Part shown: in pieces, positions 40,478 through 55,964 of the stretch
How positions within the stretch are numbered: position 1 is the stretch's first letter
Layout of the letters: every line of letters begins with the position of its first letter
NCBI RefSeq assembly: GCF_013362815.1
Contig: NZ_JABFVK010000013.1
Location: 1-64,000, forward strand
Origin: Hamadaea sp.
Lineage (GTDB): Bacteria; Actinomycetota; Actinomycetes; Mycobacteriales; Micromonosporaceae
Length of the DNA stretch: 64,000 bases
Direction of reading: 5' to 3'
Notes under the pieces: model-generated
Told to the model about the DNA's origin: nothing
The model's database searches: none
The model's input: the letters and a program-made list of their open reading frames with translations, nothing else
Position numbers and translations under genes: made by a program

Positions 40478-40488
40478 CGAAGTCTCCT

Positions 40489-42108: not shown

Positions 42109-43107
42109 TCACGCAGGCCGGACCGAGCTTTCCCGGATCTTGAGCTCGGTCTGCAAGGTCACCGTCGACGGAGGACGGCTCGGCTCGGCGATCCGCTCGG
42201 CCAAGAGCAGGGCCGCGGTGCGGCCGAGCTCGTACGTGGGCTGGACGACCGTGGTCAGCGATGGGCGTACCAGATGGGCCCAGGGAATGTCGTCGAAGCC
42301 CACGACGCCGAACCGGGCCGGGACCGAGACCCCCCGGTCCACCAGGCATTCCATCGCCCCGACGGTCATGAGGTTGTTCGCGCCGAAGACGGCGTCAGGC
42401 TCGGCGCCGGAGTCGAGCAGCGACGCCATCGCGGCGTAACCGCCCTCCTCGCGGTAGTCCGCGTGCCGGATGAGCTGGTCGTCGACCGGTCGCTTGTGGC
42501 GCTTGAGCGCGTTGGTGTAGCCGCGAAGCCGCTGCTGGGCGGTGGGCGTCTTGCGGGGGCCGGTGATGCAGGCGACCCGCTGGTAGCCGGCCCCGATGAG
42601 GTGCGATGTCGCGGCGTCCGCGCCGTGCTCGTTGTCGGACAGCACCGTGTCCACATTGGCGCCCCGGACCTGCCGGTCGATCGCGACCACGGGCGTGCCC
42701 GACTCGACGAGCCGGGTGATCGCCGCGAGCTTGCCACTGGAGGAGATGATCACGCCTGCCATCTGCTCGGCGAGCGCGGCGGTGACGTAGCGGTCCTCTT
42801 TGGTGGGATCTTCGTCGCTGTTGCAGAGGACCACGGAGTAGCCGGCCGCCTGGGCGACGTCCTCGACGCCGCGCACCAGCGAGGTGAAGAACGGGTTGCC
42901 GATGTCGGAGATGATCACGGCCCAGATGCTCGTCTGCTGGCGGCGCAGGTTACGGGCGACCGCGTTCGGGCGGTAATCGAGATCGCGCATCGCCTGGTGC
43001 ACCCGGGCGGCGAGCGCGCCGTCAACCGTCGTACGCCCGTTGACGACGCGCGAGACCGTCGCGGCGGAGACGCCGGCATGCCGTGCCACGTCGTAGATCG
43101 TTGCCAT
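42109..43107 (-). CDS. LacI family repressor of the arabinan locus
   Basis: Repressor of 332 residues. The N-terminal helix-turn-helix is TIYDVARHAGVSAATVSRVV, with the hinge helix YRPNAVARNLRRQQ; the rest is a periplasmic-binding-protein-like effector domain. It is divergent from the sugar operon. Five copies of the palindrome GAAATCGATTTC, of the CG-centred type bound by LacI proteins, lie in front of itself, the operon, the mutarotase gene and the esterase gene. It is therefore probably the local repressor, released by D-arabinose, its phosphate or an arabino-oligosaccharide. Confidence 0.85.
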   Translation of the reverse strand: MATIYDVARHAGVSAATVSRVVNGRTTVDGALAARVHQAMRDLDYRPNAVARNLRRQQTSIWAVIISDIGNPFFTSLVRGVEDVAQAAGYSVVLCNSDEDPTKEDRYVTAALAEQMAGVIISSSGKLAAITRLVESGTPVVAIDRQVRGANVDTVLSDNEHGADAATSHLIGAGYQRVACITGPRKTPTAQQRLRGYTNALKRHKRPVDDQLIRHADYREEGGYAAMASLLDSGAEPDAVFGANNLMTVGAMECLVDRGVSVPARFGVVGFDDIPWAHLVRPSLTTVVQPTYELGRTAALLLAERIAEPSRPPSTVTLQTELKIRESSVRPA

Positions 43108-43150: not shown

Positions 43151-43162
43151 GAAATCGATCCC
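43151..43162. promoter_or_regulatory. LacI operator copy O1 (10 of 12 bases)
   Basis: Partial match to GAAATCGATTTC, 44 bases before the lacI ATG, so it could mediate autoregulation. Confidence 0.45.
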
Positions 43163-43188
43163 CCGGACCGCAGCCCCGGCGGGGTTCG

Positions 43189-43200
43189 GAAATCGATATC
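43189..43200. promoter_or_regulatory. LacI operator copy O2 (11 of 12 bases)
   Basis: GAAATCGATATC in the gap between lacI and the operon, 94 bases from O3; the pair could be bridged by a tetramer. Confidence 0.6.
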
Positions 43201-43261
43201 GCCTTCGTTGACCAGGCATCTCGTCCGAGACATCCCCTGCTAACAGCGACGAAACGAGCTG

Positions 43262-43305
43262 TTGACAACCCTCGTTGCCGAGCCTAGTCTCTGGAAATCG
43301 ATTTC
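43262..43305 (+). promoter_or_regulatory. Operon promoter with perfect LacI operator O3
   Basis: TTGACA (43262-43267), 17 bases, TAGTCT (43285-43290), then the exact palindrome GAAATCGATTTC (43294-43305) on the start point. Repressor bound here would block initiation. The spacing is repeated at the mutarotase promoter. Confidence 0.8.
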
Positions 43306-43340
43306 TCGGCTGTACCTCAGAACCCCCGGTTAGGAGCACC

Positions 43341-43988
43341 GTGACGACGCAATCGGCGGACGGGCCCGCTCGCCTCGATCCCGGACTCGGCGATCCCGGC
43401 ATCACTGCGGCCCGCCAGGCGCTGCGCCACGAGGCCGACGCGGTGGCCGCCCTCATCGGACGGCTCGGACCGCAGTTCAGCGCGGTCGTCGACGCGATCC
43501 TCGAATGCCGCGGGCGCGTGGTCGTCTCCGGTCTGGGCAAGTCCGGCATCATCGGCCGGAAGATCGCGGCGACGCTGGCGAGCACGGGAACGCCGACGGC
43601 GTTCGTGCACGCGGCGGAGGCGCTGCACGGCGACTCCGGCATGGTGGCGCCCGGCGATCTGGTGATCGCGTTGTCAGCCTCTGGCGAGACCGCCGAGGTC
43701 TGCGACTTCGCCGAGATGGTGACGGCGCGAGGCATACCGGTGGTCGCGTTGACCGGACGTCCCGAGTCCACCCTCGCGACACTGGCCAAGCACATCCTCG
43801 ACGTGGCGGTCGAACGCGAGGCGGACCCGTTGAACGTCGCGCCGACGGCGTCCACCACGGCGACCCTGGCCATGGGCGACGCGCTCGCCTCGGCGTTGAT
43901 GGTGCGCCGCGGGTTCACCTCGCAGGACTTCGCCGGCTTCCACCCGGGCGGATCACTCGGACGCCGCCTCACCGGGGGTGCCCGATGA
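43341..43988 (+). CDS. SIS-domain arabinose-5-phosphate isomerase (KpsF/KdsD family), no CBS domains
   Basis: Enzyme of 215 residues that should interconvert D-arabinose 5-phosphate and D-ribulose 5-phosphate. GTG 43341 has AGGAG five bases upstream. Family motifs are strong: SGLGKSGIIGRKIAATLAST, HAAEALHGDSGM, and PTASTTATLAMGDALA...RGFTSQDFAGFHPGGSLGRRL. The tandem CBS domains of the Gram-negative enzymes are missing. Those enzymes supply KDO for lipopolysaccharide, which this organism should lack, so a catabolic role with the overlapping kinase gene is the simplest reading. Confidence 0.85.
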   Translation: MTTQSADGPARLDPGLGDPGITAARQALRHEADAVAALIGRLGPQFSAVVDAILECRGRVVVSGLGKSGIIGRKIAATLASTGTPTAFVHAAEALHGDSGMVAPGDLVIALSASGETAEVCDFAEMVTARGIPVVALTGRPESTLATLAKHILDVAVEREADPLNVAPTASTTATLAMGDALASALMVRRGFTSQDFAGFHPGGSLGRRLTGGAR

Positions 43989-45019
43989 TCCCGCAGCAGA
44001 CCTCCTCGGCCGGTGACCAGTTCGACGTTTGCGTCCTGGGCAGCTTCATGAAAGACCTGGTCACGCAGGCTCCCCGGCGACCGCGGCCGGGCGAGACGAT
44101 CCGCGGCCGCGCCTTCGACGAGTACCTCGGCGGCAAGGGCTTCAACCAGGCGGTTGCGGCCACTCGGGCGGGAGCGCGTACGGCGATGATCGGTCGCGTC
44201 GGCGACGACCGGCACGGCGCGGAGTTCCTGGCGATGCTCGCCGACGAGGGCGTCGACTCGGCGTACGTGCGGCGCGACGCGGGCTGGGGAACCGGTGTCG
44301 GGCTGCCGGTCGTCGAGCCGGACGGGAGCAACTCCATCATCGTGGTGCCCCGGGCGAACGACGCCGTGACCGCCGACGACGTGCTGTCCGCCGCCCCGGT
44401 CATCCAGCGCAGCCGCGTACTGCTGGTGCAGCTGGAGGTGCCGATGCCGGCCGTGCTCACCGCGTTGCACCTGGCCCGGTCGGCCGGAGTGCTGACCGTC
44501 TTGAACCCGGCGCCTTCGGCGCCGCTGCCGGAGGACATCGGCGCGCTGGTCGATGTGGTGGTCCCGAACGAGGTCGAGGCCGAGAGCCTGACCGGCCTGC
44601 TCTGCCACGGCGACGCCGTCCTCGGCACCGCCCCGACGCTGCGGCGACGGCTGGCCCGGCGCGGTGCGATCGTCACTCTCGGCGGCCGCGGCGTCGTGGT
44701 GGTCGACCGGCGCGACGGCGACGAGGTGCCGCCGGACGCGGTCGACGAGTACGCCGGCTGGCGGACCAGCGTGCTGAACCCGATAGCGGTCGACACCATC
44801 GACACGGTCGGAGCCGGCGACGCGTTCTGCGGAGCGCTCGCCGCCCGCATCGCCGCCGGGGACGACCTGCTCAGCGCAGCCGAATACGCCAACGCGGCCG
44901 GCGCGCTCGCCACGACTCGCCGGGGAACCGCACCGGCCATGCCCCGCGCCGACGAAATCGACGCGCTGCTCACCCGTACGACCGTCTCCGGCGCCACCGT
45001 CGGAGAGCGTGCACTGTAA
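43985..45019 (+). CDS. PfkB/ribokinase family sugar kinase, probable D-arabinose kinase
   Basis: Kinase of 344 residues, overlapping the isomerase by ATGA. Ribokinase signatures: GGKGFNQAVAATRAGA near 43-58 (signature 1) and DTVGAGDAFCGAL near 273-285 (signature 2, catalytic Asp). An aromatic Phe replaces the usual Ala in GGKGANQ, which may alter the sugar pocket. With the isomerase next door, phosphorylation of D-arabinose at O5 gives the isomerase substrate. Ribose or another pentose cannot be excluded from sequence. Confidence 0.8.
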   Translation: MIPQQTSSAGDQFDVCVLGSFMKDLVTQAPRRPRPGETIRGRAFDEYLGGKGFNQAVAATRAGARTAMIGRVGDDRHGAEFLAMLADEGVDSAYVRRDAGWGTGVGLPVVEPDGSNSIIVVPRANDAVTADDVLSAAPVIQRSRVLLVQLEVPMPAVLTALHLARSAGVLTVLNPAPSAPLPEDIGALVDVVVPNEVEAESLTGLLCHGDAVLGTAPTLRRRLARRGAIVTLGGRGVVVVDRRDGDEVPPDAVDEYAGWRTSVLNPIAVDTIDTVGAGDAFCGALAARIAAGDDLLSAAEYANAAGALATTRRGTAPAMPRADEIDALLTRTTVSGATVGERAL

Positions 45020-45040
45020 CCCCGTTGGAGGTGGTGCTCG

Positions 45041-46549
45041 ATGAAGACCCGGACCCTCTGCGCCGCGGCGACCGGCGTACTGCTGATGGCACAACTGGTC
45101 GCGGTCGCTCAACCGGCCGCGGCGACGACCGCGACGTCACCGGCGATCGTGGTGGCCAAGGTGACCGGCCCCGGGTCGGTCAGCTCGACCGACACGGCCT
45201 GGAACGTCAAGGCGACCGATCTCGGCATCATGTGGGACAACGGCGCGGGCGAGATCCTGACCGCGTTCGGCGACACCTTCGGCGCGGCGGCCACCCCGCC
45301 GGGCGCGAACGGCGACGACTGGCGCAGCCAGGTCCTGTTGCGCAGCAGCGATCACAACCTCTGGGACGGCATGTCCTTCAGCAGCGCGGCCACCGACGCC
45401 CCGGGGCACGCCAAGCAGCTCATCCCCAGCCAGAAGGTCGACAACTCCGAGATCACGGTCATCCCGACCGCGGGGGTCTCGGTCGGCTCGCGGCAATATC
45501 TCGCCTACATGTCGGTACGCCATTGGGGCGCGCCCGGTTACTGGGACACGAACTACGCCGCGATCGCGTACTCGGACGACAACGGGCAGAACTGGGTGAC
45601 CTCGGGCGGTCCCCGCTGGGACAACCCCTCCGGCAACGACCACTTCCAGATGGCCGCGATGGTGCGCCGCTCGGGGTACGTCTACCTCTACGGCACCCCG
45701 AACGGCCGTAACGGCGCACTGTACCTGGCCCGGGTGCCGGAGGCGTCGGTGCTGACGAAGTCCGCGTACGAGTACTGGACGGGCAGCGCCTGGCAGACCG
45801 GCGCGGACACGCTGGCGACTGCGATCGTCGCCGCGCCGGTGTCCGAGCTGTCGGTGCAGTTCAACGCGTACACCGGCAAGTGGCTGATGACCTATCTGCA
45901 GGGCAGCGACATCGTGCTGCGTTCGGCGACCGCGCCGACCGGCCCGTGGAGCGGACCCAGTGTGCTGGCCTCGTCGGCGGACTATCCCGGGCTGTACGGC
46001 GGGTTCATGCACCCCTGGTCCAGCGGCTCCGACCTGTATCTGACGATGTCGGACTGGACGCCGTACAACGTGTATCTGATCCGCGTGACGCTGAACCCGG
46101 ACGCCACGATCGGCAACTCGAACCTCGTCCGGGATCCGAGCTTCGAGCGGCAGACCAGCGGATCGGTCGCGTGGCCGTGGGCGGCCGTCGGCAACGGCGG
46201 GATCGACCACGATACCTGGAGCTTCACCGGCGACCGCAACGGATTCGTCCGGTACAACAGCGGTTGGCACGATCTGCACCAGGTGGTGAACGTCGCCGCG
46301 AACACGAACTACGTGCTGACCGGCTGGCTGCGTACCTCGGGCAACAACGACAACGGCTTCTTCGGCGTACGCAACGTCAACGGGCCGCCGTTCGCCGAGG
46401 TCAACTTCCACGCCGTGGGTTCGTGGACCCGCTTCACGGTGTCGTTCAACAGCGGCGGGCGTACGCAAGTCGAGGTGTTCGCCGGAATCTGGACCGACAA
46501 CGGCGACATGTGGCTCCAGCACGACGACTTCGCCCTGGTCAAGGCATAG
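45041..46549 (+). CDS. Secreted DUF4185/GH183 protein with C-terminal carbohydrate-binding domain, probable endo-D-arabinanase
   Basis: Secreted protein of 502 residues, ATG 45041 with GGAGG 10 bases upstream. A signal peptide (1-29) leads to a DUF4185 beta-propeller (about 35-350) with landmarks AFGDTFG, YMSVRHWGAPGYWDTNYAAI and WTPYNVYLIRV, and a jelly-roll carbohydrate-binding domain (about 362-502, starting NLVRDPSFERQTSG). DUF4185 is the founding domain of GH183, whose characterised members are endo-acting on mycobacterial D-arabinan. It would make arabino-oligosaccharides outside the cell for the ABC importer. The lipoprotein encoded two genes later is a paralogue lacking the binding domain. 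Confidence 0.8.
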   Translation: MKTRTLCAAATGVLLMAQLVAVAQPAAATTATSPAIVVAKVTGPGSVSSTDTAWNVKATDLGIMWDNGAGEILTAFGDTFGAAATPPGANGDDWRSQVLLRSSDHNLWDGMSFSSAATDAPGHAKQLIPSQKVDNSEITVIPTAGVSVGSRQYLAYMSVRHWGAPGYWDTNYAAIAYSDDNGQNWVTSGGPRWDNPSGNDHFQMAAMVRRSGYVYLYGTPNGRNGALYLARVPEASVLTKSAYEYWTGSAWQTGADTLATAIVAAPVSELSVQFNAYTGKWLMTYLQGSDIVLRSATAPTGPWSGPSVLASSADYPGLYGGFMHPWSSGSDLYLTMSDWTPYNVYLIRVTLNPDATIGNSNLVRDPSFERQTSGSVAWPWAAVGNGGIDHDTWSFTGDRNGFVRYNSGWHDLHQVVNVAANTNYVLTGWLRTSGNNDNGFFGVRNVNGPPFAEVNFHAVGSWTRFTVSFNSGGRTQVEVFAGIWTDNGDMWLQHDDFALVKA

Positions 46550-46618
46550 ATCATCCTGCGATCATCGGATCGGTCCGCACGGCAGCGTCGCCGCCGGGGC
46601 CGCTAGAGAGGGGACAGC

Positions 46619-47692
46619 GTGAACTACGGTTCATACGGAAGCAGCCTTCGGGACCTGCCCCGGTTGCGGCCGCACCGCCGCCGGCGCGAGTCGAGCTGGG
46701 ACCGCAGCGGCGGCAACGACGACCGAGTCACCGTCCACCCCGGTGAAACCGTCACGCTCGCCGACATCGAAGGCGCCGGCTCGATCAATCACATCTGGAT
46801 GACCGTCGCCCCGCGGGACGCGGCCACGCCGGCCACTGCTGACCGGGACTTCCTGCGCAAGCTGGTCCTGCGGGTCTACTGGGACGACGCGGAGCACCCG
46901 AGCGTGCTCGTGCCGCTCGGCGACTTCTTCGGGGTCGGCCACGGCCGCACCGCCAACTTCGTTTCGGCGCCGCTCCAGATGAGCCCGCAGGACGGCAAGG
47001 CGTTCAACTGCTTCTTCCACATGCCCTTCGCGACCCGGGCCCGGTTCGAACTCACCAGTGAGTGCGAGTCGGAGGTCCTGTGGTTCTACTACTACATCGA
47101 CTACGACCAGTTCGACGAGCTGGGCGCGGATCTGGGCCGATTCCATGCGCAATGGCGGCGGGAGTGCCCGACCGACGGCATCGAACAGGGCGAGCTGTCG
47201 AACTCTGACTGGCTCTTCTCGGGAAGCAACCTCGACGGCGCGGGCAACTACACGATCCTCGACGCCGAGGGGCGTGGTCACTATGTGGGCTGCGTGCTCA
47301 ACGTGACCAACCTCCGCCAGACCGCCGACTGGAACTGGTACGGCGAGGGCGACGACATGATCTTCATCGACGGCGAGGCGTTCCCTCCGAGCCTGCACGG
47401 GACCGGGACCGAGGACTACTTCAACACCGCCTGGTGCCCGAGCGAGAGCTATCACGCGCCGTACCACGGGATCACGCTGCCGGGCGGGGAGAACTGGAGC
47501 GGGCAGATCTCGCTCTACCGCTTCCACATCGAAGATCCCGTGCCGTTCCGCAGCTCCATCCGGGTGACCATCGAGCACGGGCACGCCAACCGGCGCAACG
47601 ACGACCTCTCCTCGGTCGCGTACTGGTATCAGGAGCTGCCCCACAAACCGTTCACGTTGCCGCCGGTCGGCCGGCGACTGCCCGGGCTGTGA
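46619..47692 (+). CDS. DUF2961/GH172 protein, probable cytoplasmic exo-alpha-D-arabinofuranosidase
   Basis: Protein of 357 residues, GTG 46619 with GAGGGGA nearby. It shows the DUF2961 pattern: ESSWDRSGGNDD near the start, GSINHIWMT, VPLGDFFGVGHG, WYGEGDDMIFIDGE and LHGTGTEDYF (about 260-269), which supplies conserved acidic residues. GH172 includes alpha-D-fructofuranosidases and exo-alpha-D-arabinofuranosidases active on mycobacterial arabinan. There is no signal peptide, so it should trim imported oligosaccharides. The next lipoprotein gene starts within its stop codon (GTGA). Confidence 0.82.
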   Translation: MNYGSYGSSLRDLPRLRPHRRRRESSWDRSGGNDDRVTVHPGETVTLADIEGAGSINHIWMTVAPRDAATPATADRDFLRKLVLRVYWDDAEHPSVLVPLGDFFGVGHGRTANFVSAPLQMSPQDGKAFNCFFHMPFATRARFELTSECESEVLWFYYYIDYDQFDELGADLGRFHAQWRRECPTDGIEQGELSNSDWLFSGSNLDGAGNYTILDAEGRGHYVGCVLNVTNLRQTADWNWYGEGDDMIFIDGEAFPPSLHGTGTEDYFNTAWCPSESYHAPYHGITLPGGENWSGQISLYRFHIEDPVPFRSSIRVTIEHGHANRRNDDLSSVAYWYQELPHKPFTLPPVGRRLPGL

Positions 47693-48861
47693 TCCGCCGA
47701 GCCCGAATGTCCGCTCTGCTCGCGGTGGCGCTGCTCGCCACCGGGTGCACGAGCTCGTCAGGAGAGACCGTGACCGTGCTGGACCCGCGTACCGACAAGC
47801 CGTTCGTGCTGACCGGCGTCGGCAACCTGACCGAGATCGGCCAGGTCACCGGTGTGCCCGGCGGCACTGACGCGTATGCGGTGCACGGGACCGATCTCGG
47901 CTCGGTCTTCACCGCCGGGGACACGACGTACCTGGTCTTCGGCGACACCTTCGGCGAACGGACAGCCGAGCAGACCGGCGCGGGCGGCAGCTTCTGGCGG
48001 TCGAACGTGCTCGGCTACACCACCGATCGCGACCTGTCCGACGGCGTACGCCTGACGGGCATGATCACCGACGAGACCGGGCTCGCCAAGGAACTGCTGG
48101 ACAGCAAGAAGGTCGACGGCGTTGAGATGACCGTCATCCCCACTTACGGGTTTGCCGTCGGCCCGAACGCTCGAGCCGGGAGTGAGGACGAAGGGCCGAC
48201 CAATGGCGGCACAGCGGGGAAGACCTTGTACCTCTATTACATGTCGGTGCGGCACTGGGGCGACCCGGGCCGCTGGGATGCCAACCACGCCGGGCTGGCC
48301 CGCTCCACCGACGGCGGGCAGAACTGGACCCGGCTGGAACAGACGACGTGGCCGGGTGACTCCGGATTCATCCAGGTCAGCGTCGCCCATGTCCTCGAAG
48401 ACGGGGTGGACCAGCTCTACTTCTGGGCCATCCCGGCCGGCCGGTTCGGCGGCGTACGCCTCATGCGCGTACCCGCCGCGCAGGTGGAGGACCCGTCGGC
48501 CTACCGGTACTACGCCGGAGCCGACTCCACCGGTCCGATCTGGGCCGCCGAACGGGACCGGGCGGTCCTGATCGTCGACGACACCATCGGCGAGCTTTCG
48601 GTGGCGTACAACTCGTATCTCGACCGGTGGATCATGATGTATCTCCGCGAGGGCGACGGCGTCGTGCTGCGCGAGGGCATCACCCCCTGGGGGCCGTGGA
48701 GCGAGCCGCGGACCGTCGTGGACGCGGCCGGACATCCCGGGCTCTACGCGCCCTTTCAATACCCGGTGACCGGCGAAGACGGCCGCCGAATCTACTTCAA
48801 CCTCTCCCTCTGGGGACCGTACAACGTGTTCCTCTACTCAATTGATCTTGAGAAATCCTAG
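47689..48861 (+). CDS. DUF4185/GH183 lipoprotein, second probable endo-D-arabinanase
   Basis: Surface lipoprotein of 390 residues. GTG 47689, overlapping the GH172 stop, gives a compact signal with lipobox LLATGC at residue 20; ATG 47707 is an alternative. The mature part is a DUF4185 propeller sharing VFGDTFGERT, YYMSVRHWGDPGRWDANHAG and LWGPYNVFLYS with the paralogue at 45041, but no carbohydrate-binding domain. Anchored next to the transporter, it may shorten chains just before import. Confidence 0.8.
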   Translation: MIRRARMSALLAVALLATGCTSSSGETVTVLDPRTDKPFVLTGVGNLTEIGQVTGVPGGTDAYAVHGTDLGSVFTAGDTTYLVFGDTFGERTAEQTGAGGSFWRSNVLGYTTDRDLSDGVRLTGMITDETGLAKELLDSKKVDGVEMTVIPTYGFAVGPNARAGSEDEGPTNGGTAGKTLYLYYMSVRHWGDPGRWDANHAGLARSTDGGQNWTRLEQTTWPGDSGFIQVSVAHVLEDGVDQLYFWAIPAGRFGGVRLMRVPAAQVEDPSAYRYYAGADSTGPIWAAERDRAVLIVDDTIGELSVAYNSYLDRWIMMYLREGDGVVLREGITPWGPWSEPRTVVDAAGHPGLYAPFQYPVTGEDGRRIYFNLSLWGPYNVFLYSIDLEKS

Positions 48862-48869
48862 GAGTCGCG

Positions 48870-50189
48870 ATGAAGCGCAGAGCTCTGCTCGGCGGCCTGG
48901 CCGGCGCGGCCGCTCTCGCCGCCGCCGGATGCGGCAGCGGCAAGGACAGCGGATCGGGTGGCAAGACCGAGGTGACCATCTGGCAGCAGAAGTTCACCGA
49001 CCAGGAGGACGCCTGGTACAAGAAGGCGGTCGCCGCGTACAACGCCGCTCAGGACAAGGTGAAGGTCGTGCACCAGATCGTGCCGGCCGACGCGTGGGAC
49101 CAGAAGATGAAGGCCGCCCAGGCGGCGGGGAAGGCGCCCGACGTCTTCACCCTGAACTACAACAAGGTGCAGGGCTTCGCCCGGACGAGCCAGATCCAGG
49201 CGCTCGACGGCGTCATCGCCGCCGACAAATGGTCGGGCCTGCAGGATTCCGTGGTCGGCTCGATCACCTACAAGGGCAAGAAGTACGGCTACCCGATGCT
49301 CGTCGAACCGTCGGCCGTCCTCTACTACCGCAAGGACCTGTTCGCCAAGGCCGGGCTCGACCCGGAGAAGCCCCCGGCGAGCTGGGCCGAACTGATCGAC
49401 TACGGCAAGAAGCTGACGACCAAGCAGGTCTCGGGCTTCTCGACGGCCGGCAACCAGATCGACATGGGCTGGTCCACCTGGGGCCTGCAGTGGAACGCCG
49501 CCGGACACCTGCCGATCAGCGACGACTGGTCGCAGCCCCGGGCCACCGACCCGGCGTACAAGCAGCTGCTGCAGGCGTACCAGGATCTGTACAAGCAGGG
49601 CGTCATGCCCAAGCAGCCGCTCGCCGCGTACGCCGACGCGACCCCCTTCGGTCAGGGCAAGGCGGCCATGATGGCCTGCGGTTCCTGGGCGGCCAGCGTG
49701 CTGCTGTCGGACTTCCCGAAGGTCGTGGGCAACGTGGCCGCCGCGCCGATGCCCTCGTTCGACGGCGACGCCACCAAGCCGACCGCCACCCTGGGCGGCT
49801 GGACCTGGGTGATCGACGGCAAGTCGACCAAGGCGCAGGCGGCGGCCGACTTCATCGCGTACGTGCTCGCCGGTGACCCGGCTCTGCTGGTCGACTACTT
49901 CAAGACGACCAAGTTCTCGAAGTACTCTCCCCGCACCGCGGTCGCCGACACGATCAGCAGCGACCCGGCCGCGAAGGAGAACCCGTGGGCGCAGACGATC
50001 CAGGACAAGGTGGTCAAGTACGCCAAGCCGGAGCCGACCTACGACTGGTCGATCAGCCTGGCGTTCGGCAAGGCGATCGAGAAGGCCCTCCAGGGCAAGG
50101 ACATCGACACGGCGCTGAAGGAGGCCGACGCCGAGATCAAGGACATCATCGCGAAGAACAACCTGGCCGGACAGGGCACGACGTCATGA
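48870..50189 (+). CDS. Sugar ABC transporter substrate-binding lipoprotein (arabinan oligosaccharides)
   Basis: Lipoprotein of 439 residues, ATG 48870 after TAGGAGTCGCG. The signal has MKRRALLGG and a lipobox LAAAGC at residue 20. The rest is a family 1 (CUT1) oligosaccharide-binding protein: WAELIDYGKKLT, GKAAMMACGSWA and GGWTWVIDGKSTKAQAAADF. CUT1 systems carry di- to oligosaccharides, in line with the two surface endo-enzymes encoded just before it. Specificity for arabino-oligosaccharides is inferred from context only. Confidence 0.82.
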   Translation: MKRRALLGGLAGAAALAAAGCGSGKDSGSGGKTEVTIWQQKFTDQEDAWYKKAVAAYNAAQDKVKVVHQIVPADAWDQKMKAAQAAGKAPDVFTLNYNKVQGFARTSQIQALDGVIAADKWSGLQDSVVGSITYKGKKYGYPMLVEPSAVLYYRKDLFAKAGLDPEKPPASWAELIDYGKKLTTKQVSGFSTAGNQIDMGWSTWGLQWNAAGHLPISDDWSQPRATDPAYKQLLQAYQDLYKQGVMPKQPLAAYADATPFGQGKAAMMACGSWAASVLLSDFPKVVGNVAAAPMPSFDGDATKPTATLGGWTWVIDGKSTKAQAAADFIAYVLAGDPALLVDYFKTTKFSKYSPRTAVADTISSDPAAKENPWAQTIQDKVVKYAKPEPTYDWSISLAFGKAIEKALQGKDIDTALKEADAEIKDIIAKNNLAGQGTTS

Positions 50190-51139
50190 CGACCACGGCC
50201 GGTGCTGCGACCTCGGTCGCAGCACCGGGCACCCGTGAAGTGTCCGGGGCACGGTCCCGGCGCCGGCGGCACGGCGACACCAAGGTGGCGTTTGTGATGC
50301 TCGCGCCACTGGTGGTGCTCCTGGCGATCTTCGTCATCTGGCCGCTGCTGCACGCCGTCTACATCAGCTTCTTCACCTGGAGCTTCTACGCCTCGTCAGA
50401 GTTCGTCGGGCTCGACAACTACGTGAACGTGCTGACCGACCAGGCGTTCCTTGCCTCGGTGCTGCGCGGACTCGGGTTCGCCGCGATGGTGGTCCCGGCG
50501 CAGCTGGTGATCGCCTTCGCGTTCGCCAACCTCGTGAAGTCGTTCAGCGGGCGCATGGCCGGTCTGCTCAAGGTGACGATCTACGTCCCGGCCGTGATCT
50601 CCGAGGTCATCGCCTCCATCATCTTCACCATCATCTACGCATACCGTGGGGGCATCCTGAACTGGGCCTTGAGCCTCGTCGGCCGCGACGACACCGCGTG
50701 GCTGGGCGAGACCGGGACCGCGTTGCCCGCGATCGCGGTGCCGGCGATCTGGATCGGGATGGGCATCGCCTCGCTGATCATGCTGGCCGGGCTGCTCGAC
50801 ATCCCCGAGGCCTACTACGAGGTGGCCTCGCTCGACGGGGCGGGCTGGTGGGCCAAGATGGTCCACATCACGCTGCCGCTGATGAAGAACATCTTCCTGT
50901 ATCTGCTGGTCACCGGGTTCGCCGGGTCGTTGCAGTTCCTCGTGGTGCCGCTGGTGATGACCAACGGCGGGCCGCTGGAGTCGACCACGCTGCCGAACCT
51001 GTTCATCTTCCGGCACTTCACCAACGACCTGTACGCCGGTTATCCGATCGCCGCCGCCCTCCTCCTCTTCCTGGTGCTGGGTTCGGTCTCGGCGGTCATC
51101 TTCCGGCTGGTCCGCTCCGAGAAGGCGGTGGATGGATGA
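50186..51139 (+). CDS. Sugar ABC transporter permease 1
   Basis: Permease of 317 residues of the MalF/UgpA type, overlapping the binding protein by ATGA. A 30-residue Arg-rich tail precedes six membrane segments. EAA loop: YYEVASLDGAGWWAKMVHIT near residue 212. It pairs with the next permease. Confidence 0.85.
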   Translation: MTTTAGAATSVAAPGTREVSGARSRRRRHGDTKVAFVMLAPLVVLLAIFVIWPLLHAVYISFFTWSFYASSEFVGLDNYVNVLTDQAFLASVLRGLGFAAMVVPAQLVIAFAFANLVKSFSGRMAGLLKVTIYVPAVISEVIASIIFTIIYAYRGGILNWALSLVGRDDTAWLGETGTALPAIAVPAIWIGMGIASLIMLAGLLDIPEAYYEVASLDGAGWWAKMVHITLPLMKNIFLYLLVTGFAGSLQFLVVPLVMTNGGPLESTTLPNLFIFRHFTNDLYAGYPIAAALLLFLVLGSVSAVIFRLVRSEKAVDG

Positions 51140-51954
51140 CCCGGCTGCTCGTGACGATCGGCAAGGTGTTCCTCGCCGGGCTGTTCTTGCTCAGTGCCCT
51201 GTTCCCGCTGGCCTGGATGCTGATCGCGGGATTCAAGAGCAAGACGGAGGTAGTGCAGACCCCGTTCCAGTTCTTCCCCGAGGTCTGGCGCTGGGAGAAC
51301 TACACTCAGATCCTCGAGGACCCGGCGTTCCTGCGCTCGATCGGCGTGACCTTCGTCGGTGCGCTGCTGTTCGCCGCACTGAGCCTGGTGGTCAACTCGC
51401 TCGGGGCGTACGCCTTCGCCCGGCTGGACTTCGCGTTCAAGCGCACCCTGTGGGTCGTCGTCATCACGACGATGTTCATCCCGGGGATCGCCATCATGCT
51501 GACCTCGTTCATCGTGGTGACGCAGCTGCACATGCTCGACACGATGGCGGTCCTGGTCGTTCCGGGTGCGGCGTCGGGCTTGCAGGTGTTCTTCCTGCGG
51601 CAGTACTACCTGGGGGTGCCGGTCGCGCTGGAGGAGGCGGCCCTCATCGACGGCGCCGGGCGCTGGCGGATCTTCCTGCACATCTTCACGCCGATTTCCA
51701 AGGGCGCGCTGGTGGTCGTCGGGGTCACCTCGTTCCTGGCGTTCTGGAACGCGTACGTGTGGCCGGTGCTCACCATCACCGATGCGAACCTGTTTCAGAT
51801 CCAGCAGTATCTGGCGACCTTCCGATCCGACCGCTCCTCCGAGCTCGGCCTGCTCATGGCGGGCTCGACGCTCGCCGCGCTGCCCGTCATCCTGCTCTTC
51901 CTGGCCTTCCAGAAGCAGATCATCGGCGGCATCCGGATCTCGGGGATGAAATGA
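51136..51954 (+). CDS. Sugar ABC transporter permease 2
   Basis: Permease of 272 residues of the MalG type, overlapping permease 1 by ATGA. Six membrane segments; EAA loop VALEEAALIDGAGRWRIFLH near residue 170. No ATPase gene follows, so the importer probably uses a shared MsiK-like ATPase encoded elsewhere. Confidence 0.85.
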   Translation: MTRLLVTIGKVFLAGLFLLSALFPLAWMLIAGFKSKTEVVQTPFQFFPEVWRWENYTQILEDPAFLRSIGVTFVGALLFAALSLVVNSLGAYAFARLDFAFKRTLWVVVITTMFIPGIAIMLTSFIVVTQLHMLDTMAVLVVPGAASGLQVFFLRQYYLGVPVALEEAALIDGAGRWRIFLHIFTPISKGALVVVGVTSFLAFWNAYVWPVLTITDANLFQIQQYLATFRSDRSSELGLLMAGSTLAALPVILLFLAFQKQIIGGIRISGMK

Positions 51955-54365
51955 GTTCTCTCGAACGCGCGCGGCCGATCCGGCACGACGAAGGGCGCTT
52001 CGTCGCGCTGCCGATCGGCGGCATCGGCACCGGCGGGTTCGCGCTCGGCGCGGACGGCGGGCTGCGGCAGTGGCAGCTGCAGAACGTCGGCAACCATCGC
52101 GGGGAGTTGCCGGGCACGTTCTTCGCGCTGCGGGTCAGCCAGATCGAGCCGCCGCTCGACCGGACCGTCGTCCTGCAGGCACCGGTCGAGCCCGGCCCGC
52201 CCACGCCGCTGGTCAACGACGATCTCGTGCCCGATTGGCAGCGTGAGTTGTCGGCCACTTACCCGGGCGTGGAATCGACGACGTTCCGCGGGCTGTATCC
52301 GTTCGCCGAGATCGACTACCACGGGCTGCCGGTGGAGGTCCGGCTAACGGCGGTCAACCCGCTGATCCCGCTCGACGTCGAACGGTCCTCGCTGCCCGTG
52401 GGAATGTTCACCTTCACCGTCACCAATCCGTCTGATGTGGACGCTCACGTCTGGCTCGGGGCGGCGATGCAGAATCCGGTCGGCCACGACGGCACCACGC
52501 CGATCGACGGCGTCAACGGGCGCGGCTACGGCGGCAACACGAATCGCGTACGGCGGGAGAACGGCTGGACCTCGCTGGTCATGGACAACCACGCGATCGA
52601 TCCACTCGCGCCCGGCGCCGGCCAGGCGGTGCTGTCGATCGACTCGCCGTCCGCGGCGACCCTGCCACAGTGGCAGGACGCCGATGAATTCCTCGGCTTC
52701 CTCGGCTCGCGAGCGTTCTATGTGGACACGTCGACCGTGGTCCCGCACGGCTTCGACTACCAGCCCAGTGGGCCCGCGCCGGCCTTCGGGCCGAGCGGCC
52801 CCGGCCGCACGTGGAACGGCGGGGTCGCGGCCGTCCTCGACCTCAAGCCGGGGGAGAGCGGCACCGTCCGCGTCCTGCTGGCCTGGCATTTTCCCAATCG
52901 GTACGCGAATTTCGTGCAGTTCGGTCCGCCGAACCCCCAGTGGGGGCCGACCCGGTTCTGGCTTGGCAACGCCTATGCGCAGCGGTACGCCGACGCCGTG
53001 TCCGTCGCGTCCCACGTCACCTCGTCGTGGGACGCCCTGGTCGCCGGTACGCACGCCTGGACCTCGGTGCTCGCCGAGAGCGACCTCGACGACGAAGCCG
53101 TCGAACATCTCGCCGCTCAGGCGGCGATCCTGCGCAGCCCGTCCTGCTTCGTCACCGCCGACGGCGCGTTCTTCGGGTTCGAGGGCGTCCTCGGGGCGTC
53201 GACGGTGATGTGGACCGGCGACGTCGGCGGATCGTGCCCGCTCAACTGCACCCACGTGTGGAACTACGCCCAGACCGTCGCGCGGCTGTTCCCCGAGCTC
53301 GAACGCAGCATGCGGCAGACCGAGTACGACGTGATGCAAGCGCCGGAGGGCTATCTGCCGCATCGGGTCATCTCGCCGACCTACCTGCCGCAATTGTGGG
53401 ACAAGCCGATCGGCGGCCCCGTCGAGCCGGCCCTCGACGGGATGCTCGGCAGCGTCCTGAAGACTTATCGCGAGATACGCAACGGAGCCGGCCTCGACTG
53501 GCTACGCCGATACTGGCCCTCCGTGCAGCGGTTGCTGGACTACGTCCGCGAACGGTGGGATCCCTCCTCGACCGGGGTGCTGCGCGGCGTACAACCGTCC
53601 ACACACGACATCGACTTGTGCGGCGTCAACAGCTTCATGGGGACGCTGTGGCTCGCCGCGTTGCGGGCTGCCGGCACCATGGCCGACCTGATGGGTTCTT
53701 CGCGGGACCAGTTCGACGAGCTGTTCGAGCGAGGCTCCGCAGCCTATGACAAGTTGCTGTTCAACGGCTCCTACTACGTCCAAGTCCTCGACGAGGGGGA
53801 GTCCACGGACTACCAGTGGCTGGACGGCTGCCTCGCCGACCAGCTCATCGGCCAGTGGTGGGCGCATCAGCTCGATCTCGGCTATCTGTTGCCGCGTGAC
53901 CACGTCGTCAGCGCGCTGCGCTCGGTCGTGGCGAACAACCTCCGGACGGGATTCGACGGGTTCGACCACATCTACCGGGTCTTCGCCGACCGGGACGACA
54001 CCGGGCTGCTCATGTGCACCTGGCCCGACGGCGGCCGTCCGGCGGTGCCGACGCGCTACTGCGACGAGGTGTGGACCGGTAGCGAATACCAGGTGGCGGC
54101 GCACTGCCTCTGGGAAGGACTCGACGACGAGGCGTACGCGATCCTCCGGGGGATCTGGGCTCGCTATGACGGGCGGCGGCGCAATCCCTACAACGAGATC
54201 GAGTGCGGCGACCACTACGTACGCGCGATGGCGGGCTGGTCAGTCGTCGACGCGTTGTCCTCGCGACCCGGGACGTGGCCGCTGATCACTCCGACCGGGT
54301 GGGGGACCGTCACTCGCTCCGCCGACGGCGTCGCCGTCTCGTGCCGCTACGGCGACCTTTCCTAA
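51951..54365 (+). CDS. GH116 family glycosidase, probable cytoplasmic exo-beta-D-arabinofuranosidase
   Basis: Enzyme of 804 residues, overlapping permease 2 by ATGA. It has the GBA2-type N-terminal domain (VALPIGGIGTGGFALGADGG) and an alpha/alpha-barrel C-terminal domain, with VMWTGDVGGSCPLNCTHVWN and the conserved RRNPYNEIECGDHYVRAMAG. GH116 covers beta-glucosidases, beta-xylosidases, N-acetyl-beta-glucosaminidases and exo-beta-D-arabinofuranosidases. Beside GH183 and GH172 the last activity is the best fit: it would remove the beta-1,2-linked arabinose caps of mycobacterial arabinan. No signal peptide. Last gene of the operon. Confidence 0.82.
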   Translation: MSSLERARPIRHDEGRFVALPIGGIGTGGFALGADGGLRQWQLQNVGNHRGELPGTFFALRVSQIEPPLDRTVVLQAPVEPGPPTPLVNDDLVPDWQRELSATYPGVESTTFRGLYPFAEIDYHGLPVEVRLTAVNPLIPLDVERSSLPVGMFTFTVTNPSDVDAHVWLGAAMQNPVGHDGTTPIDGVNGRGYGGNTNRVRRENGWTSLVMDNHAIDPLAPGAGQAVLSIDSPSAATLPQWQDADEFLGFLGSRAFYVDTSTVVPHGFDYQPSGPAPAFGPSGPGRTWNGGVAAVLDLKPGESGTVRVLLAWHFPNRYANFVQFGPPNPQWGPTRFWLGNAYAQRYADAVSVASHVTSSWDALVAGTHAWTSVLAESDLDDEAVEHLAAQAAILRSPSCFVTADGAFFGFEGVLGASTVMWTGDVGGSCPLNCTHVWNYAQTVARLFPELERSMRQTEYDVMQAPEGYLPHRVISPTYLPQLWDKPIGGPVEPALDGMLGSVLKTYREIRNGAGLDWLRRYWPSVQRLLDYVRERWDPSSTGVLRGVQPSTHDIDLCGVNSFMGTLWLAALRAAGTMADLMGSSRDQFDELFERGSAAYDKLLFNGSYYVQVLDEGESTDYQWLDGCLADQLIGQWWAHQLDLGYLLPRDHVVSALRSVVANNLRTGFDGFDHIYRVFADRDDTGLLMCTWPDGGRPAVPTRYCDEVWTGSEYQVAAHCLWEGLDDEAYAILRGIWARYDGRRRNPYNEIECGDHYVRAMAGWSVVDALSSRPGTWPLITPTGWGTVTRSADGVAVSCRYGDLS

Positions 54366-54431
54366 GCGGGAAGCCTGCAGATCACGGATATGCAGGCTTC
54401 CCGCGCTCTTTTAGCCTGCATATCCGTGATC
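54366..54431 (+). terminator. Operon terminator with two mutually exclusive hairpins
   Basis: Hairpin 1 has exact 14-bp arms (54366-54379, 54391-54404) followed by GCTCTTTT, a good intrinsic terminator for the plus-strand operon. Hairpin 2 has exact 19-bp arms (54380-54398, 54413-54431) that use the right arm of hairpin 1, so both cannot form together. Confidence 0.65.
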
Positions 54432-54444
54432 CGGTGCCCGGCGG

Positions 54445-54864
54445 TCAGCCCGGGAGCGGCTCGGGAGCGGCCGGTCCATAGGGGACGCCCGCCTGCAGGA
54501 TGACGTTGGCGTACGGAGTCACCTCGCCGGTGCGCACGATCGCCCGCGCCGTACGCGTGATCCGCTTGAACTCCTCGTGGCTGACCCGTCCGATCCGTTG
54601 CGCCGGAACGAGACCGGCGATGCCGTCGGCGATCGTGGCATCGGACAGCTCCTCGGCGATGGTGGCGTGTTCCACCACGAACTCGCCGAGGATCTGCCGG
54701 AGCACGGGAAGGAAGGCGGGTTCGCCGGACCGCCAGGCGAGGTGGACGACCTCCACTCCGGGCGGGGCGGGCAGTCCGGCGTCGCAGACGACGATCAGAT
54801 CGGTGTGGCCTGCGCTCGTGAGGATCTCCAGCAGGCGTGGATGCCACAGACCGTCGTGCCGCAT
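54445..54864 (-). CDS. RbsD/FucU family sugar mutarotase
   Basis: Protein of 139 residues, ATG 54864 after GGAGGAAGAC; an upstream TTG is less likely. RbsD/FucU features: GLWHPRLLEILTSAGHTDLI with the catalytic His in GH, VVCDAGLP, and the TGEVTPYANVILQAGVPY end. RbsD interconverts ring forms of D-ribose and FucU those of L-fucose, which D-arabinose resembles sterically. It would supply the ring form needed by the PfkB kinase. It has its own LacI-controlled promoter with operator O4. Confidence 0.85.
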   Translation of the reverse strand: MRHDGLWHPRLLEILTSAGHTDLIVVCDAGLPAPPGVEVVHLAWRSGEPAFLPVLRQILGEFVVEHATIAEELSDATIADGIAGLVPAQRIGRVSHEEFKRITRTARAIVRTGEVTPYANVILQAGVPYGPAAPEPLPG

Positions 54865-54890
54865 GTCTTCCTCCAGCTGCTCACCACACT

Positions 54891-54940
54891 CGGGAATTCG
54901 ATTTCCCGGCAACGCTAAAGAATCGGCTTTCGCGTGTCAA
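54891..54940 (-). promoter_or_regulatory. Mutarotase gene promoter with LacI operator O4
   Basis: On the minus strand: TTGACA (54940-54935), 17 bases, TAGCGT (54917-54912), then GAAATCGAATTC (54905-54894; 11 of 12), extended to an 18-base palindrome by flanking CGG/CCG. Geometry is nearly the same as at the operon promoter. The -35 overlaps the TGA stop of the esterase gene. Confidence 0.75.
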
Positions 54941-55929
54941 CCGGCGGGCGTCAGGGCCGCGACGATGCCCGGGACGTCCTCGCGGAAGTTGCGCGCCCAG
55001 TGCTCACCGGTATGCGTACCGGGGTAGTCGTGGAAGGCGTTGGGAATCCCGGCGTCGAGCAGGCGCTGGTGGAACGCCGCGTTCTGGTAATGCACCACCC
55101 GCTCCTGGACGTCGCTCATCCAGGCGTCCGGCGTCACGTCGGTCAGCCCGGCGTACAACGCGATTCGCTTGCCGCGGAAGCTTTCCACGCGATCCCACGG
55201 ATTCTCGGCGGTCATGATGTCGTGCCGTTCGCCGATGCCGCCGTAGACCGCGCCGGGGAACTGCCCGTCGGCGGCCGGGGTCACGAAGATCCAGCTCTCG
55301 ATGTCGGCTGCAAGGTTGTTCGACGGGCCTGAGTAGGACGACACCGCCGCGAACCGATCCGGGAACTCGGCGGCGTACTTCTGCGCGCCGTAGCCGCCCA
55401 TCGACAGTCCGGCGACGGCACGCCCGGCAGCGCTCCCGGTGGTCCGCAGGTTGGCGTCGATCCACGGGATCAACTGGTAGATGTGGAAGTTCTTCCAGTT
55501 CAGCGGGCCGAGCAGCGGGCGGAGGTGATTCGCGTACCAGCCGATCTTGTAGCAGTCGGGCATGACCACGATGACCTCCAGCCCGGCGGTGGAATCCACC
55601 GCGCCGAGTTCCATGTGCCACTGGCGGAAGTCGGTGTTGCCGCCGTGCAGCAGGTAGAGCACCGGATAGCGGCGGGCCGGGTTGGCGTCGTAGCCGTCGG
55701 GCAGCAGGATGTTGACACCCGGATCGCGAGTCAGCTCGGTGCTGCGGAATCGCACGTACGCCAGGCGCGCGTCCCATCGCTGGTTGTCGAGCACGGTCAG
55801 CCCGAATCCGTTGCCGACCGGCAACCCCGCAGCATGTGCGGGCGAGCCGAGCTGCCCGGCGGCAGCCGTCGCGGCGACGGTGGCGGCGGTGCCGGTCAGC
55901 AGGCGACGGCGCGAAACGGTTGGTCGCAT
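54937..55929 (-). CDS. Tat-exported antigen-85-like esterase
   Basis: Secreted alpha/beta hydrolase of 330 residues, ATG 55929 after GGGGAGGACTC. The signal peptide has a twin-arginine motif (SRRRLLTGTAAT). The catalytic core is of the esterase D/antigen 85 family (PF00756): YPVLYLLHGGN, nucleophile Ser in AGLSMGGYGA, Asp likely in the LYAGLTD region and His in YPGTHTGEHW. Antigen 85 itself transfers mycolic acids on arabinan. In this LacI-controlled locus it could remove mycolyl or succinyl esters that shield the arabinan, though other ester substrates remain possible. Confidence 0.78.
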   Translation of the reverse strand: MRPTVSRRRLLTGTAATVAATAAAGQLGSPAHAAGLPVGNGFGLTVLDNQRWDARLAYVRFRSTELTRDPGVNILLPDGYDANPARRYPVLYLLHGGNTDFRQWHMELGAVDSTAGLEVIVVMPDCYKIGWYANHLRPLLGPLNWKNFHIYQLIPWIDANLRTTGSAAGRAVAGLSMGGYGAQKYAAEFPDRFAAVSSYSGPSNNLAADIESWIFVTPAADGQFPGAVYGGIGERHDIMTAENPWDRVESFRGKRIALYAGLTDVTPDAWMSDVQERVVHYQNAAFHQRLLDAGIPNAFHDYPGTHTGEHWARNFREDVPGIVAALTPAG

Positions 55930-55952
55930 GAGTCCTCCCCAAGACGATGTGA

Positions 55953-55964
55953 GAAATCGATTGC
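55953..55964. promoter_or_regulatory. LacI operator copy O5 (11 of 12 bases)
   Basis: GAAATCGATTGC, 24 bases before the esterase ATG, in its promoter region. No strong -35 is visible for this gene. Confidence 0.6.

Follow-up and report, generated by a model that had tools for sequence, protein, structure and literature searches.

A predicted LacI-family regulon for D-arabinan utilization in Hamadaea sp.

How do bacteria that feed on D-arabinan, a sugar polymer characteristic of the cell walls of mycobacteria and related bacteria, control the enzymes for using it? We considered a stretch of 64,000 nucleotides from Hamadaea sp., a member of the Micromonosporaceae (contig NZ_JABFVK010000013.1, positions 1 to 64,000; hereafter, the window). 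It contains a gene for a LacI-family repressor and an oppositely oriented operon that encodes glycoside hydrolases (GH), an ATP-binding cassette (ABC) sugar importer, an SIS-domain isomerase, and a sugar kinase. Beyond the operon, and on the opposite strand, are genes for an RbsD/FucU-type mutarotase (rbsD) and an exported esterase (Table 1). We propose that LacI is the dedicated repressor of a regulon for D-arabinan utilization and that D-arabinose is its inducer, which we consider very probable.

Five operator sites in one locus

An earlier note on this DNA, made from the sequence alone, had reported a twelve-base palindrome, GAAATCGATTTC, at five places in the promoter regions of lacI, the operon, the mutarotase gene, and the esterase gene. 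Scanning the window finds the sites where the note had placed them, with two, one, zero, one, and one mismatches for operators 1 to 5. There are no other matches in the window with up to two mismatches (in 100 shuffles, the mean was 0.66 and the maximum was 4). Each of the five lies in non-coding DNA 5' of a gene: operators 1 and 2 precede lacI, operator 3 precedes the SIS/kinase/GH operon, operator 4 precedes rbsD, and operator 5 precedes the esterase gene. If all 4,096 twelve-base palindromes are ranked by their matches with up to one mismatch in the window's 5' regions, this palindrome is first (4 matches; the next has 3).

The note had added that the idea would fail if the motif were just as frequent elsewhere, and the counts for the genome, for related loci, and for the family did not bear this out. 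Across the 7.45-Mb genome (124 contigs), the exact palindrome occurs only once, as operator 3. Five places match with up to one mismatch, and four of these are in this locus; the fifth (C28:57254) is in a stretch that we judged by eye to be coding. Since 115 places match with up to two mismatches, operator 1 cannot stand on its own. It is a weak match, and what speaks for it is conservation: two sister species (G061 and G080) have GAAATCGATCCC unchanged. In fact, all five sites are kept in both of these species, with operator 2 always 105 bases from operator 3. Given the shuffles, the rarity in the genome, the ranking of palindromes, and the counts in the family and in relatives' genomes (below), we rejected a chance origin of the sites.

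The operon and rbsD share a promoter build, as had been claimed: TTGACA, 17 bases, TAGNNT, three or six bases, and then the operator. The operon's promoter is in Table 1. For rbsD, the elements are TTGACA-17-TAGCGT on the minus strand, and operator 4 starts six bases after them. The TAG is not fixed, as the operon's -10 element in the sister species is TACTCT. Among 201 distinct contexts of sites in relatives, 77 combine TTGACA (five of six bases matching) and TANNNT, 16 to 18 bases apart and within reach of the site. The operator starts 3–6 bases after the -10 element in 50 of the 77 and overlaps the promoter's spacer in 10. None of 604 displaced control positions, which are mostly in coding DNA, had this build. 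A general sigma-70 promoter scan at its default stringency found nothing between 42000 and 57000. A repressor bound just after the -10 element or over the spacer would be expected to hinder the start of transcription.

Table 1. Features of the D-arabinan locus, by position in the window.
Feature	Coordinates	Strand	Remarks
LacI-family repressor	42109..43107	-	332 amino acids; helix-turn-helix VSAATVSRVVNG; Pfam PF00356 and PF00532 above cut-off
Operator 1, GAAATCGATCCC	43151..43162		10/12; 43 bases from lacI start
Operator 2, GAAATCGATATC	43189..43200		11/12; upstream of lacI
Operon promoter TTGACA-17-TAGTCT	43262..43290	+	ends 3 bases before operator 3
Operator 3, GAAATCGATTTC	43294..43305		exact palindrome; 35 bases from first operon gene
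SIS-domain sugar-phosphate isomerase	43341..43988	+	KpsF/GutQ type without CBS domains; TIGR00393; PDB 2xhz
PfkB/ribokinase-type sugar kinase	43985..45019	+	PF00294; ribokinases in PDB
GH183 (DUF4185), predicted endo-D-arabinanase	45041..46549	+	N-terminal export signal (by eye); C-terminal extension; PDB 8hhv
GH172 (DUF2961), predicted exo-furanosidase	46619..47692	+	PF11175; PDB matches include 8ic8
Second GH183 (DUF4185) protein	47707..48861	+	lipoprotein-like start (by eye); PF13810, 284 bits; frame open from 47689
ABC sugar-binding protein	48870..50189	+	PF01547/PF13416
Predicted ABC permease 1	50186..51139	+	position, membrane-like sequence, conservation
Predicted ABC permease 2	51136..51954	+	position, membrane-like sequence, conservation
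GH116, predicted exo-beta-D-arabinofuranosidase	51951..54365	+	PDB 8ic6
Hairpin between convergent GH116 operon end and rbsD	54364..54444		-45.3 kcal/mol, z -5.8; likely a two-way terminator
RbsD/FucU sugar mutarotase	54445..54864	-	NF008761
Operator 4, GAATTCGATTTC	54894..54905		11/12; 29 bases from rbsD start
Exported esterase	54937..55929	-	PF00756; twin-arginine-like start (by eye)
Operator 5, GAAATCGATTGC	55953..55964		11/12; 23 bases from esterase start

The operator in related genomes

Using the GH172 protein as a query, we collected 43 loci. A simple program based on codon usage called their genes, and tblastn supplied the labels. With up to one mismatch, these loci have 66 matches to the palindrome in 23 loci, and 62 of the matches are in 5' regions, which make up 9.8% of the bases. 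Here too, the palindrome ranks first of 4,096 in 5' regions, and none of 119 control palindromes of the same composition had more than 3 sites in these regions. The site is present in 21 of the 22 loci with a LacI that is at least 39% identical to the window's, and in 2 of the 21 others (Fisher p = 5e-9, with related genomes treated as independent). The exception among the 22 (L011) has such a LacI but has GTAATCGATTAC in place of the palindrome.

Could the sites be shared merely because the genomes are closely related? We rejected this, as the sites recur across different gene orders and alongside LacIs that are only about 40% identical. Also, ten Saccharopolyspora loci share the GH172 gene and have no detected LacI, and they have no match with up to one mismatch. 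In 13 other genomes that were searched whole, the exact palindrome has five copies, in five genomes, and each copy is inside a D-arabinan locus (one of them, in L031, falls in a frame that was called as a gene). Within the window's family, an exact copy is present in 43 of 150 genomes (including its own); a control palindrome that shares the core has one in 7 of 150. There are 55 regions around exact copies if Hamadaea's own genome is excluded. Of these, 24 have matches to D-arabinan glycosidases (in L141 and L148, only weak matches to GH172), and another 4 contain different members of the gene set.

As a separate check, we searched for GH183 in 396 genomes from the order of Ruania (L013), and 14 matched. 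Two of these were already in the earlier set, and we examined 11 of the remaining 12 regions, the twelfth being a 3.4-kb contig. A site with up to one mismatch is found in 10 of these 11 new regions, although in L247 it is only within a coding match; the eleventh has GTAATCGATTGC instead. The regulon recurs at D-arabinan clusters across actinomycete families and is not peculiar to this genome.

The core of the operator is GNAATCGATTNC, as indicated by two symmetric variants of the palindrome. GTAATCGATTAC precedes the isomerase gene in Occultella (L011) and the GH172 gene in a metagenome-assembled genome of Kutzneria (L020). GCAATCGATTGC occurs twice before the GH172 gene of Cohnella sp. JJ-181, from the Bacillota (L038:9797 and 9894), which hints that the operator or the whole cluster has crossed phyla. 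In 164 distinct upstream sites, the information drops sharply beyond the twelve bases, two of which (positions 2 and 11) are loosely constrained; this matrix is biased, as the sites were picked by their similarity. The core is found within 250 bases before the isomerase gene in all 15 loci with the isomerase from the first two sets (13 of them distinct, as L025 and L155 are the same locus, and so are L036 and L151).

In one genus of the family, the exact palindrome lies between two large genes (L159, L162, L168, and L170–L174). In L159, which was scanned, these encode a melibiase-type protein and a protein with a carbohydrate-binding module (CBM6/35). No D-arabinan match is near the palindrome in any of these regions. 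These sites probably belong to another LacI regulon with the same operator.

Proposed regulation and its alternatives

LacI has clear matches to PF00356 (63 bits), PF00532 (123 bits), and PF13377 (121 bits), all above their cut-offs. The genome has 41 LacI matches including itself, and the most similar of the others is 41% identical. Its best curated models are RbsR and CcpA, and its best PDB chains are CcpA and RbsR. But the equivalog cut-offs are widely missed (for RbsR, 250.9 versus 531 and 245.9 versus 382 bits), and its gene company differs.

We identified the products of the other genes by comparison with Pfam, NCBIfam, and PDB. The first GH183 protein (PF13810, 399 bits) is similar to an endo-alpha-D-arabinanase (8hhv, E = 2e-165, residues 29–501 of 502). 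The GH116 protein is far more similar to an exo-beta-D-arabinanase of the ExoMA2 type (8ic6, E = 2.5e-111) than to glucosylceramidases (about 1e-29). The GH172 protein (PF11175, 298 bits) matches both D-arabinofuranoside and D-fructofuranoside enzymes in PDB; an exo-alpha-D-arabinofuranosidase (8ic8) is among the matches, and alphaFFase1 is closer than ExoMA1. By eye, the first GH183 protein has an export signal, and the GH172 and GH116 proteins have none. The SIS protein has 215 amino acids, with the SIS domain only. It scores above the cut-off of the TIGR00393 subfamily model (210.4 versus 203.7 bits) and is similar to arabinose 5-phosphate isomerase (2xhz, E = 1.5e-45), so we predict that it is a D-arabinose 5-phosphate isomerase. 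RbsD scores above the cut-off for D-ribose pyranase (NF008761, 119.3 versus 93 bits), and its sugar specificity is a prediction.

We propose that a dimer of LacI binds GNAATCGATTNC. At the operon and at rbsD, where the operator lies three or six bases after the -10 element, the bound repressor would block the start of transcription, and via the two sites upstream of lacI it would repress its own gene. D-arabinose released from the polymer would enter LacI's sugar pocket and free the DNA. As for the enzymes, the exported GH183 protein would cut D-arabinan, and the ABC system would import the pieces. GH172 and GH116 would then release D-arabinose inside the cell, and the RbsD/FucU protein would speed the interconversion of its ring forms. 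The kinase would convert D-arabinose to D-arabinose 5-phosphate, and the SIS enzyme would convert that to D-ribulose 5-phosphate. The esterase would be part of the regulon as well, probably stripping ester groups from the wall polymer.

Why D-arabinose as the inducer? In other genomes, genes for FucI-type isomerases and FGGY kinases are found behind this operator. Within the fetched stretches, 15 loci have the isomerase and kinase pair (at 45% identity), 26 loci have FucI/FGGY (at 50% identity), and no stretch has both; FucI-like matches of 23–25% identity beside FGGY genes were left uncounted. Both routes run from D-arabinose to D-ribulose 5-phosphate, with the steps in opposite order. Because LacIs that are 64–81% identical to the window's serve both kinds of route, the inducer is most likely something that is common to both, and D-arabinose is the first choice. 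D-arabinose 5-phosphate is less attractive because it is bypassed by the FucI/FGGY route, which is served by LacIs of 64–74% identity.

Several observations weigh against our proposal or parts of it. Two loci have sites without a LacI of at least 39% identity (in L031, LacI is 37% identical, and L039 has none in the stretch), and three clusters from Tessaracoccus or Arachnia have the enzymes and a LacI of 36–37% identity with no site at up to one mismatch. L247, the sixteenth locus with the isomerase, lacks the core; the nearest sequence is GAAAACGATTCC, with two mismatches, about 220 bases ahead of where the match begins. The window's isomerase misses the equivalog cut-offs for GutQ (216.3 versus 481) and KdsD (210.5 versus 505), and its kinase is below the ribokinase equivalog cut-off (TIGR02152, 264.9 versus 299.65), a score that may fit a kinase for a pentose other than ribose. 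And 27 of the 55 exact-site regions in the family have no gene for D-arabinan or D-arabinose within about 10 kb, according to tblastn. Other regulators probably share the palindrome, as this group includes the recurring site beside melibiase-type and carbohydrate-binding proteins. Might some other DNA-binding protein, and not this LacI, read the palindrome in the window? The genome encodes about 40 other LacI-type proteins, and 30 of the 55 regions lack a LacI of at least 42% identity. We think this is very improbable, as the window's LacI keeps close company with the site and sites precede many lacI genes. Also, the palindrome has a central CG, as do those of 1,173 of 1,303 surveyed LacI-family regulators (PMC4052901, main text). 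A narrower doubt is whether the sites before rbsD and the esterase gene arose by chance or are relics, so that the regulon includes only lacI and the operon. The esterase has no evident promoter of the shared build beside operator 5. Among the family's 150 genomes, 18 have RbsD homologues, and 14 of these have no site beside the gene (in one of the RbsD genomes, a site with one mismatch lies about 1.3 kb from the gene). Esterase homologues are also found in 18 of the 150, and for 7 of these no operator link was seen (the stretches viewed were 11–20 kb for four, one of which stops just upstream at the end of its contig, and within about 1.5 kb for three; for the G126 esterase, the contig ends about 150 bases into the 5' region). 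Against this, both sites are among the only five places in the genome at up to one mismatch, and both are kept in the two sister species: operator 5 is the exact palindrome in G061 and is the same sequence, GAAATCGATTGC, in G080. G061 keeps the whole gene order; the assembly of G080 has the operon on one contig and rbsD with the esterase on another, so their linkage is not visible. G039, also of this genus, has another cluster, with an FGGY kinase, a 49%-identical LacI, and the same operator, and has no match to rbsD or the esterase. Besides Hamadaea's own genome and the two sister species, a site just precedes rbsD in another genus (L157, 24 bases before rbsD, beside lacI and sis). The esterase is linked to the operator in 11 of 18 genomes. 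In six, its own 5' region has a site with up to one mismatch (Hamadaea's own, G061, G080, G121, G066, and G017; sites in other genera are in L104/L167, L099/L187, and L106). In four others, the esterase is directly behind GH183 in a regulated cluster (G117, G108, G099, and G128; regions L136, L138, L156, and L182), and in G001 it comes after GH183 plus a pair of FG-GAP genes, in the same orientation (L131). Chance or relic sites are very improbable, and the earlier note's single regulon, which ties the mutarotase and the esterase to the operon and lacI, is the best reading of the data.

What LacI senses is the less certain part of the proposal. Using the same operators, LacI might respond to D-arabinose 5-phosphate, D-ribulose 5-phosphate, or an arabino-oligosaccharide instead. 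LacI proteins use varied effectors, D-ribulose 5-phosphate is common to both of the downstream routes, and the importer's binding protein belongs to oligosaccharide-type families (SBP_bac_1/8). However, D-arabinose alone induced most of the cluster's genes in Microbacterium (PMC10509167, main text), which speaks against the need for an oligosaccharide but fits D-arabinose and its metabolites alike. And as discussed above, D-arabinose 5-phosphate is not on the route in the FucI/FGGY clusters. Overall, we view these other inducers as unlikely, albeit less so than the other alternatives. It could also be that the operon serves another furanose polymer, such as D-fructofuranosides. The GH172 family also holds enzymes that act on D-fructofuranosides, and one of these (alphaFFase1) is a closer match in PDB than ExoMA1. 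But both GH183 and GH116 match D-arabinan enzymes far better than others, and the operon encodes an enzyme of the arabinose 5-phosphate isomerase type. We therefore give little credence to another polymer and prefer a D-arabinan regulon that is induced by D-arabinose.

Known systems and a possible wider regulon

A D-arabinan locus of Dysgonomonas gadei, PUL42, reportedly relies on a type of uptake other than the window's importer. Like the window, it has D-arabinan enzymes from GH172 and GH183, but it is a Bacteroidota locus, and the main text of its description mentions neither LacI nor a regulator (PMC10115798). Several families of D-arabinan-cutting enzymes were described only recently, in 2023 (main texts of PMC10115798 and PMC10509167). 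The locus of Microbacterium arabinogalactanolyticum is more alike: it includes GH183, GH172, GH116, an ABC importer, and a putative isomerase and kinase, but the main text names no regulator or operator (PMC10509167). According to that text, D-arabinose and mycobacterial wall extract each induced the genes for GH183, GH116, and the binding protein, with a milder effect on GH172. In the scheme proposed there, endo-enzymes act outside the cell, oligosaccharides are imported, and exo-enzymes act inside, which fits the export signal on our first GH183 protein and the lack of a signal on GH172 and GH116.

Local regulons of LacI-family proteins were surveyed by Ravcheev et al. (2014; PMC4052901, main text). 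The window shares their even palindromes with a central CG, their tandem sites, and, we predict, their self-regulation, and most of their sites are 30–140 bases before the start codon, like ours. But the surveyed motifs have 16–22 bases, while here the information ends at 12. "Arabin" appears nowhere in the survey's main text (supplements excepted). We found no publication that gives the palindrome, mentions D-arabinan together with LacI, or pairs GH183 with a regulator (subscription papers and RegPrecise were outside the search). For actinobacterial LacI regulons of D-arabinose, the literature match was a paper on a corynebacterial sigma-D response. Nor is a catabolic route via arabinose 5-phosphate described among the literature matches listed. 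Neither the regulator nor the operator was found in print. We take the system for a local LacI regulon.

Sites with up to one mismatch also precede genes beyond the D-arabinan enzymes: a cutinase-like protein in Thermoactinospora (L005), M23 peptidases (L036 and L132), and a GH43-like protein (L131). In L182, a site precedes a GH38 alpha-mannosidase that is divergent from GH183 (L136, L138, and L156 have like-placed genes; the scan covered the one in L182). The fold of the window's esterase appears to be of the CE1 (carbohydrate esterase)/antigen-85 kind. Feruloyl esterases lead by E-value in both sequence and fold searches, and for the structural model (mean pLDDT of 67.7), mycoloyltransferase A of Corynebacterium glutamicum has a higher query TM-score (0.67–0.68). 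The esterase may be of either kind.

Other genes might be added. Double-domain, RbsA-type importer ATPases lie directly behind exact sites in four regions (L134:4200-5744, L135:9995-11542, L141:10811-12397, and L144:6617-8173) and are candidate D-arabinose importers. In two regions (L137:9634 and L152:9898), an exact site is 26 bases before a gene for a GFO/IDH/MocA-type oxidoreductase, a possible further member; both genomes (G117 and G108) hold a D-arabinan cluster, on another contig. Downstream of lacI in the window (38444-41919, minus strand) are genes for an N-acetylmuramoyl-L-alanine amidase with FG-GAP repeats and for a second FG-GAP protein. The window scan found no site with up to two mismatches before this pair. 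They may be functional partners of the regulon, as some relatives have the operator at FG-GAP and M23 peptidase genes. Hamadaea has a further DUF4185 (GH183) gene elsewhere in its genome (G000:C12:102800-103753); no operator lies near it among the places with up to two mismatches that were listed, which are fewer than all 115.

We speculate, with less confidence than we have in the regulon itself, that GNAATCGATTNC is the switch of a program by which soil actinomycetes dismantle the walls of mycobacteria and their relatives, beyond feeding on a single sugar; each of the cases that suggest this is single or one of a few. If so, the esterase, the cutinase-like protein, the M23 peptidases, and GH38, together with the arabinan enzymes, could strip the wall of its esters, mannose caps, arabinan, and peptidoglycan, and mannose-capped lipoarabinomannan would be among the targets. 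The D-arabinose would be consumed by one of two alternative routes; the little-described one phosphorylates first, with an enzyme of the ribokinase type, and then uses an arabinose 5-phosphate isomerase. The operator and its LacI are a candidate switch for the enzymes of bacteria that feed on D-arabinan, and the operator provides a natural promoter from which a response to D-arabinose is expected. As a search handle, the operator points to further likely members (esterases, peptidases, mannosidases, and importers) whose tie to D-arabinan utilization would be missed by homology alone.

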